From Syntrophomonas sp. (lineage in GTDB: Bacteria > Bacillota > Syntrophomonadia > Syntrophomonadales > Syntrophomonadaceae), in NCBI GenBank assembly GCA_016841245.1, contig JAENZN010000016.1, positions 1 through 64,000 on the forward strand: DNA of 64,000 nucleotides, in the 5' to 3' direction. Each line of letters starts with the position of its first letter. The stretch's first letter is position 1. Made by a program: the position numbers and the translations under genes. The notes beneath the pieces are model-generated. The model saw only the letters and a program-made list of their open reading frames with translations. It had not been told where the DNA came from and ran no database searches. Shown here one piece after another: positions 45,126-48,149 of this stretch.

Positions 45126-45377
45126 CTAATTTCCTCCTCGCCCAGACCCCCGCTAAAAACCATCTCTTCTTAATATAGTGAATTGTACTATTTTTTAAAA
45201 ATATTAACAAGGACCAGAAATATGAATATATAATAACCCCCCATTTTTATACTATGTGTAAGATAAAATTAGAACCGTTTTGTATTTTCAGACATGGGTA
45301 GGATTATTACAACCTTATGCAGAAAGTATAGATATATTAACATTATTTAGTAAAACTTTTATTGAGGAGGACTAATA

Positions 45378-46721
45378 ATGAACAGCAAACTAAGAATCAT
45401 TGGCGGTGTTGCCGCAGGCATGAGTGCGGCCGCCAAGGCTCGCCGGGTTAATCCGGAATTAGATATAAAGGTATTCACCGATGATCCATATATCTCCTAT
45501 TCTTCCTGAGGTTTGCCCTATTATATCGGAGATATAGTAAAGTCCCATGAAAATTTGATCGTTCGAACGGTGGATGACTTTGCTCGGCAGGGTATCCAGG
45601 TCATAACCAGGAGCAGAGCCTTGGAAATCAATAGCTATAAAAAACAGATCATTTTAGAAGACCTGCTAACGCAGCGCTCTTGGACGGAAGCATATGACCA
45701 TTTAATCATTGCTACCGGCGCTCAGCCATTTCTTCCATCTTTGGACGGTATTGGCTTGAAAGGTATTTTTACCCTTCGCAGCATTCAGGATAGTCAGGCC
45801 ATAAAGGCTTATCTCCAGGAATACCAGCCCACCCATGCGGTTGTCGTAGGTGCAGGCTATATCGGTCTGGAAATGGTGGAAAACTTGCTGGTACATGGCT
45901 GTAAGGTTCGAGTAATCGAAAAAGCTCCCCATATTCTACCCAATATGGACCCCGATCTTGCGGAAGTAGTTCACAACTATATGGAATCCAGGGGTATTGA
46001 GATTTTAACTGGATCAGCACCTATCACTTTTAAAGGCAGCGACAAGGTAAATGAAGTAGTGACCGGACCTGATCATTTTCCGGCTGATGTGGTAATACTT
46101 TCCACGGGTGTGCTCCCTAACAGCGAACTCGCAGCCCAGACCGGCATCAAACTGGGAGCTGGACGGGCTATTCGAGTAAATGAGAGAATGGAAACGAGCC
46201 AAGCTGATATTTATGCTGCTGGTGACTGCGCTACAGTAAGGCATTTGGTCTCTGGTCAGGAAGTATATCTTCCCATGGGTACTACTGCCAGTAAACAGGG
46301 TCGGGTGGCGGGCGAAAATGCCGCCGGTGGCCAGGCAATTCTCAAGGGGGTTCTGGGAACCGGCATAACTAGAATTATGGAGATGGAAGTATCCCGAACC
46401 GGATTATGTGAGTATGAATGCCAAAAGTTGGGCATTGAATATATAAGCCATACTATTAAATCCCGCACTCGAGCTCCTTATCTTCCCGATTCTGGACGCA
46501 TTTATGTCAAATTGACCGTAGATAAAAACAGCCGCCTTCTCTTAGGAGGACAGATTGTAGGCTATCCGGGTGCAGGCAAACGTATAGATACTATTGCTGC
46601 CGCCCTTACTGCCAGATGCAAAATCGATGATTTATACAATTTGGATCTGGCTTACACACCTGCCCTTAGTGTCCTGTCGGACCCGGTTTTAATTGCTATT
46701 AACAAATTTCACCCCTCCTAA
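45378..46721 (+). CDS. Predicted selenoprotein: CoA-disulfide reductase / NADH oxidase-type flavoprotein
   Basis: Translation from ATG 45378 (after GAGGAGG) gives 447 residues if TGA at 45507-45509 (codon 44) is read through. Residues 7-23 form the FAD-binding segment IIGGVAAGMSAAAKARR; the text around the TGA is YISYSS-U-GLPYYIGD, where family members have Cys (Cys43 in the CoA-disulfide reductase). NAD-binding GAGYIGLEMVENL and FAD-binding AAGDCA follow, and the C-terminal dimerisation domain is complete. Length is typical. No frameshift or other stop occurs, and no Shine-Dalgarno sequence supports a start after the TGA. A SECIS-like hairpin lies at 45518-45537. The enzyme would reduce CoA or polysulfide disulfides, or O2, with NAD(P)H. 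The alternative is a single nonsense mutation. Confidence 0.8.
45507..45509 (+). other. In-frame UGA codon, probable selenocysteine 44
   Basis: The TGA replaces the active-site cysteine codon of the flavoprotein family. Flanking residues (SYSS before, GLPYYIGD after) are conserved in frame on both sides. Confidence 0.78.
45518..45537 (+). promoter_or_regulatory. Putative bacterial SECIS hairpin
   Basis: CTAT and AT (45518-45521, 45523-45524) pair with ATATAG (45532-45537), leaving T45522 bulged and a 7-base loop ATCGGAG. A bulged U in the upper stem and a GG in the apical loop are the features SelB recognises in known bacterial elements. The stem starts 8 bases after the UGA. The stem is AU-rich, so stability is moderate. 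Confidence 0.6.
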
Positions 46722-46943
46722 ACCTCTTTCAAAACTAAATCTAAAAATATAAGGCAAACCTCAATCTTATAGTATACAAAGTCCCTTTTATAAACGCCCT
46801 GGTCAAACCGGGGCAATAATACTATATGCTCAGCTTTTATAGACTTTCGCCTCTCTTTGCATCTCTTTTTTGCTTTCCAATCTCCTTTTCAGGGTATACA
46901 ATGGGTTAAGTTAATACACCTACCTTCAAAGGAGCATCAGTAT

Positions 46944-48149
46944 ATGTCTAATTTTAGCAGGTCCTTCTTAACCCCACTGTTTCTCTTTGCTGCAGCCAGC
47001 TGCTTGTTCGGCCTTTATGCAGGTCTATATGATCCATCTTTCAATAACTATCTGGCCCAGGTACACCATATTGATGAAGTAGCCCGGGGAGCTCTGGAAT
47101 TCCCACGCGAACTGCCGGGCTTTTTGTGTGCCTTTATTTTTTCTCTATTTATGTTTCTGGCTGACACCAGGATTGCTGCCCTGGCTGCTCTCCTGTTAGC
47201 TTTATCTTTATGGGGGCAGGGTTGGCTGGCTCCTGACATGACCATGGTAGTAGTGTGGATGCTGATGTGGAGTACCGGAGCCCATGTGTTTATGGTAGTA
47301 AAATCTTCTATCGCCCTGCGCCTGGCTGATAAGGGGCGCGAAGGCAAACTAATGGGAGACCTGGGTGCACTGGAAGCCCTGGGCCTTCTGATAGGCATGA
47401 TCCTGGTATACTTCGGGGTCTCCTTGCTCAGCTTTTCATTTCCTGTAATATTCGGCCTGGCTGGTGCCTGTTCCCTTGCTGCAGCATTATTATTATACCG
47501 GATAAAACCTGAACCGGTAAAAAGGCCTGCCCGACAGCTGCTCCTGAAACGCAAATATACCCTTTTTTATATCCTTAATATGATTTTCGGAGCACGAAAG
47601 CAGATATTTTTGACCTTTGCTCCCTGGGTGTTGATCAAACTCTTTCACTGCGGTATAGAAACTTTCGCGCTGCTGGGTATCATTGCTACCCTTATGGGTC
47701 TATTCTATCGCCCCTTGTTAGGTCGCGCCATAGATGCCTGGGGTGAGCGAACCGTCTTATCCATTGATGCAGTTTTAGTGACTTCTTTATGCATGATCTA
47801 TGCTTTTGCCCAGCAGCTGTTTGCTGATAATATAGCCGTGATATTAATAATGATGTGTTTTGTAACCGACCAGCTTCTTTTCGCCGTTACTATGGCCCGG
47901 ATAACCTACTTGAATCGCATTGTTGAATCGCCGGATGATATTGCCCCCAGTATATCCATGGGTATAACTCTGGATCACGCAGTATCCATGACCGTTCCTT
48001 TTGCCGGAGGCTTGTTATGGGCCTCCCTGGGGTACCAGGCGGTCTTTTTGGCAGCTGGAATCATGGGAGTCTTAAACCTGGTCGCAGCCCGTTTCATTCC
48101 CGGGCCAAACATATTGCCCATCAAGGATCCTGCCAATATATCCAGTTGA
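46944..48149 (+). CDS. MFS transporter
   Basis: A 401-residue polytopic membrane protein with about 12 hydrophobic segments. ATG at 46944 is preceded by AAAGGAG; the frame runs upstream to 46857 without homologous content. The first cytoplasmic loop (HHIDEVARGALEFPRELPG) and the linker RIKPEPVKRPARQ before the second half fit the major facilitator fold. The substrate cannot be told. A GC-rich hairpin (46796-46814) lies between it and the flavoprotein gene. The 180 bp after it carries no evident signal. Confidence 0.85.
   Translation: MSNFSRSFLTPLFLFAAASCLFGLYAGLYDPSFNNYLAQVHHIDEVARGALEFPRELPGFLCAFIFSLFMFLADTRIAALAALLLALSLWGQGWLAPDMTMVVVWMLMWSTGAHVFMVVKSSIALRLADKGREGKLMGDLGALEALGLLIGMILVYFGVSLLSFSFPVIFGLAGACSLAAALLLYRIKPEPVKRPARQLLLKRKYTLFYILNMIFGARKQIFLTFAPWVLIKLFHCGIETFALLGIIATLMGLFYRPLLGRAIDAWGERTVLSIDAVLVTSLCMIYAFAQQLFADNIAVILIMMCFVTDQLLFAVTMARITYLNRIVESPDDIAPSISMGITLDHAVSMTVPFAGGLLWASLGYQAVFLAAGIMGVLNLVAARFIPGPNILPIKDPANISS

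Follow-up and report, generated by a model that had tools for sequence, protein, structure and literature searches.

The locus at positions 45378–46721 (forward strand) of the window, the 64,000-nucleotide stretch of Syntrophomonas sp. DNA analysed here, raises two questions: whether a TGA triplet inside an enzyme gene is read as selenocysteine (Sec), and how such a codon came to be there. The original prediction placed Sec at the redox-active position of a CoA-disulfide reductase (CoADR)/NADH oxidase-type enzyme, and this interpretation is supported, the genomic checks having come out as predicted. The gene very likely encodes a known kind of redox enzyme that carries Sec, by way of an in-frame UGA, at its single catalytic residue. 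Taken as a whole, the account in which UGA 44 of a CoADR homologue is decoded as Sec, and in which this Sec version arrived by homologous recombination, is considered highly probable from genomic comparison.

Gene structure and protein family

The gene consists of a single frame of 447 codons, intact except for one TGA at codon 44 (45507–45509, forward strand). As first proposed, both sides lie in one frame and there is no other lesion. The start codon, ATG 45378, is preceded at a distance of 7 nt by the Shine-Dalgarno sequence GAGGAGG (45364–45370, forward strand), and a similar leader also occurs 5' of the orthologues in the genus. In a scan of the window for TGA read-through, this gene was the sole convincing candidate. 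The genome contains no second close copy, and no close Cys copy, the next best match showing 29–34% identity.

The predicted protein scores above the cut-off for PF07992, PF00070 and PF02852, the FAD/NAD(P)H and dimerisation domains of pyridine-nucleotide-disulfide reductases. Its best-scoring NCBIfam families are two CoA-disulfide reductase equivalogs (TIGR03385 / NF007123). Both fall below the curated cut-offs (432.5 vs 458 bits and 420.5 vs 578.8 bits), so the substrate assignment is insecure. In full-length alignment with the solved CoADR/Nox proteins 6ruz, 3cgb, 3icr, 5l1n and 4fx9, codon 44 coincides with the catalytic Cys, confirming that the TGA sits on the essential Cys of the family. 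The corresponding motifs are SYGACGLPY (6ruz), SYAQCGLPY (3cgb) and SFANCGLPYYIG (3icr), and the window gene carries UGLP at this single catalytic position. Two tyrosines, Tyr368 (RAPYLP) and Tyr426 (DLAYTP), align with those of 3cgb; we take two tyrosines near the active site to be a CoA-disulfide reductase feature with a catalytic role. The full-length alignment, the catalytic position and both tyrosines are thus common to the Bacillus-type CoADR (3cgb) and to 6ruz, 3icr and 4fx9. However, the window protein would have Sec in place of Cys, and it lacks the C-terminal rhodanese-type extension of 3icr-type proteins.

By homology, the product is probably an NAD(P)H-dependent FAD enzyme with a single Cys/Sec redox centre. 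Sec44, replacing Cys, would exchange electrons with FAD and would be joined in a mixed (seleno)disulfide to the substrate, a small thiol or sulfur compound. The neighbouring genes (DegV, glycosyltransferase, MFS, ABC/FtsX) give no hint as to what this substrate is. For an anaerobe, reduction of CoA disulfide or of persulfide/polysulfide seems more likely than that of O2, although O2 reduction by the Sec enzyme is possible.

It had been anticipated that an automatic gene caller would start at 45513, and the ORF finder does report a frame from TTG 45513 (402 aa). The appearance of this frame in the output allows a reading in which it is made alone, as a shorter protein, with the 5' portion serving as a leader. 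Such a protein would be missing the FAD-binding N-terminus. The only SD-like sequence nearby, a GAGG, is 1 nt from the TTG, and one must go another 37 codons downstream to reach a start that has an SD-like sequence. A strong Shine-Dalgarno sequence stands before ATG 45378, and codons 1–43 show conservation at the protein level. The short product is therefore extremely unlikely.

Selenium machinery of the genome

The genome of the window organism (56 contigs, 99.99% complete) was searched for the Sec machinery, and selA, selB, selD and selC, the last as tRNA-Sec, are all present, as the original prediction required. The genes for tRNA-Sec (C49:76437–76530, 72 bits, with ARAGORN in agreement), SelB (C49:78230–80107, 379 bits) and SelA (C49:80210–81580, 574 bits) are complete and clustered on one contig. 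The selD gene (L046; G000:C49:70955–71875, 383 bits) lies ~5 kb from the tRNA-Sec gene and contains an in-frame TGA of its own. Three formate dehydrogenase alpha genes (L104, L105, L108) also contain an in-frame TGA and, together with selD, are further probable selenoproteins. On genomic grounds, this combination of Sec machinery and in-frame TGA codons in selD and the formate dehydrogenases indicates that the organism decodes UGA as Sec.

Codon 44 among orthologues

A second species of the genus, represented by the separately assembled genome G002, has TGA at the same codon, in a gene whose protein is 75% identical to that of the window. The three other genus genomes compared (G001, G003 and G004) have TGC. 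All five carry tRNA-Sec, so the Cys forms are not due to loss of the Sec trait. Cys orthologues from Syntrophomonadaceae, these three among them, show 51–76% identity to the window protein, with neighbours conserved within the genus. They differ from the window gene at codon 44, which is TGC or TGT in them (TCG in one case), and in lacking a comparable long hairpin. In the remainder of the order the equivalent codon is likewise TGC or TGT, apart from that one TCG. No further internal TGA was seen in orthologues from 398 sampled genomes of the phylum. Given Cys codons across the rest of the order and no further case in these genomes, the ancestral state is most simply Cys, and Sec would be recent and local. 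The variation between TGA and TGC that was sought among orthologues is therefore present, at codon 44 alone and unaccompanied by other internal lesions.

Several other sequences in the alignment were considered separately. Internal stops in G022, G027, G055 and G057 (TAA) and in G040, G042 and G052 (TGA) were rejected as Sec codons or lesions, codon 44 being TGC or TGT in all seven; wherever the motif scan extended to the C-terminus, the apparent internal stop is the terminal stop. The single TCG belongs to L057 (G051), which encodes Ser where the catalytic Cys is expected and whose reading frame is otherwise open. A divergent homologue, L061 (G028; 44% identical), is missing the SYxxCGLPY motif entirely.

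Purifying selection is evident on either side of the TGA. Between the window gene and the genus relatives with estimable dS, dN/dS is 0.06–0.07 for codons 1–43 and 0.08–0.15 for codons 45 to the end, values that fit neither a dead 5' end nor an untranslated 3' end. These observations also bear on whether the TGA arose by chance as a nonsense mutation or is a Cys codon miscalled in sequencing. A single base separates TGC or TGT from TGA. However, a pseudogene or sequencing error is already contradicted by the second genome with TGA at the same codon of a ~75% identical protein, by the selection on the 43 N-terminal codons (dN/dS about 0.06–0.07), by the lack of any other lesion, by the complete Sec machinery and by a long hairpin specific to the TGA alleles, and must be considered very unlikely indeed.

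Putative SECIS element

Under the Sec reading, UGA 44 would be decoded by SelB and Sec-tRNA, directed by a hairpin that begins 9 nt after the codon. This putative bacterial SECIS (45519–45539, forward strand) consists of UAUUAUAUC-GGA-GAUAUAGUA, a stem of 9 bp closed by a GGA loop at 45528–45530, which lies 18 nt after the UGA. A hairpin with a GG-containing loop had been predicted here and is present; the bulged U that was also described does not appear in the predicted fold, where the 9-bp stem is plain. Published criteria for bacterial SECIS elements specify a loop of 3–9 nt with G in its first two positions, an upper stem of 4–16 bp, a spacing of 16–37 nt and a minimum free energy of at most -7.5 kcal/mol (PMC13188914). 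The window hairpin lies within all of these bounds, the energy barely so: the larger fold has -7.6 kcal/mol, with an unremarkable and uninformative z of about -0.9. In G002 the hairpin has 8 bp and the same loop and position, agreeing with the published ranges in everything but energy (-4.8 to -5.1 kcal/mol against the -7.5 limit).

Across 16 family orthologues, the longest qualifying helices are those of the two TGA genes (9 and 8 bp). The Cys genes have 2–7 bp, and the three from the genus 4–5 bp. However, an equally long helix is reached by 8.5% and 12% of synonymous recodings. Because of these frequencies, and because G002 misses the energy limit, the hairpin by itself is modest evidence.

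Mosaic structure and probable origin of the Sec allele

Comparison with the sister genome G004 shows that the window gene is a mosaic. Identity to G004 is 97% over the first 107 nt of the gene and drops to 69% over the remainder. The low-identity segment, foreign with respect to G004, occupies 45484–46966 (forward strand), with a left edge that is uncertain within 45480–45487 and a right end at about 46966. The left edge falls 20–27 nt before the UGA, and the shift in identity is abrupt, taking place within about 8 nt. The segment takes in the UGA, the SECIS and all that remains of the gene, and continues through the 3' spacer into the beginning of the following ORF. Its identity to G004 is about 70%, compared with 91% for the gene upstream and 96–97% for those downstream.

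Phylogenies follow the same boundaries. Trees of the flanks join the window to G004 with support of 88/87 upstream and 100/100 downstream. For codons 45 to the end, sisterhood of the window and G004 is rejected (p-AU 6e-94), as is a grouping of the window with G003 and G004 (p 0.003); the window instead groups with G002 and G001. Over these codons G003 and G004 stay sisters (100/100), so the incoming segment is that of the window. The identity drop and the rejected sisterhood indicate that in this species the change from Cys to Sec took place by homologous recombination, bringing in UGA, SECIS and enzyme body together and replacing the 3' 1.2 kb of the resident Cys allele along with the downstream spacer. 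No donor was found among the genomes compared. To judge from the surrounding DNA, the Sec version was thus probably swapped in from a relative in place of an ordinary Cys version.

A stretch of 70% identity to G004 might also arise if the gene had evolved fast after a change from Cys to Sec. The gene is indeed slightly more divergent than its flanks between the Cys genomes G003 and G004 as well. However, synonymous divergence from G004 also jumps (dS 0.28 before the TGA and 2.27 after it), the 3' spacer gives no alignment with G004 at all, and neither the abruptness of the change, within about 8 nt, nor the shift in topology (p-AU 6e-94) fits such acceleration, which is very unlikely. It is improbable, though conceivable, that the segment at 45484–46966 represents an assembly join.

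Recombination remains the preferred reading, and the same gene in G002 (L113) and G001 (L114) presents a milder dip in identity, about 0.73 vs 0.85. Here the pairing of G001 with G002 is not rejected for codons 45 to the end (p 0.19). The dip may mean that exchange took place a second time or that this gene evolves faster; from this weaker signal, exchange may have happened more than once.

Relation to known selenoproteins

A Sec-containing CoADR-like family was listed in 2006 from one organism, Geobacter metallireducens, in 2008 from one GOS sequence, and in reviews of 2022 and 2026 as UGxP/TIGR03385 (PMC1794560, PMC2398784, PMC9312934, PMC13188914). These listings bear out the statement that Sec had been predicted only rarely in this family. 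The known proteins are described as Sec-containing FAD-dependent oxidoreductases (CoA-disulfide reductase, 'NADH oxidase'; TIGR03385/PRK09564), WP_011365774.1 being an example. The 2006 list assigns 10 selenoproteins to Syntrophomonas wolfei, the CoADR-like one not among them. The Geobacter-type enzyme and the window gene have the protein family and the UGxP motif (UGLP in the window) in common but belong to different phyla and lineages; the comparison is one of family and motif. Since Sec had been listed in the family before, the selenoprotein family is not new, and the window gene adds a further member to it from another phylum. What is new is this further lineage and the recombination history of the gene. 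Within partial coverage of the literature, no publication was found that describes the transfer of Sec alleles by recombination within a gene.

The position of the UGA, the Sec machinery, the conservation on both sides of the codon, the restriction of the long hairpin to UGA genes and the mosaic structure are all established at the level of sequence, whereas the actual insertion of Sec, like the substrate, the physiological role and the selective reason, is inferred. For annotation, the practical consequence is that gene callers are likely to truncate or miss this gene. The closely related species provide a natural Sec/Cys pair of one single-residue redox enzyme, well suited to asking what benefit selenium brings. 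For one case, the junction offers a concrete answer to the question of how a Cys enzyme can give way to a Sec enzyme in a species, although this takes both a new stop codon and an RNA element: the two come in jointly, by allelic replacement. It is moderately probable that Sec and Cys alleles of this enzyme circulate in the genus, homologous recombination being the means of exchange and UGA, SECIS and enzyme body acting as one unit. As the UGA and SECIS would then move with the enzyme body, the switch between sulfur and selenium could be made in one step, with no non-functional intermediate.
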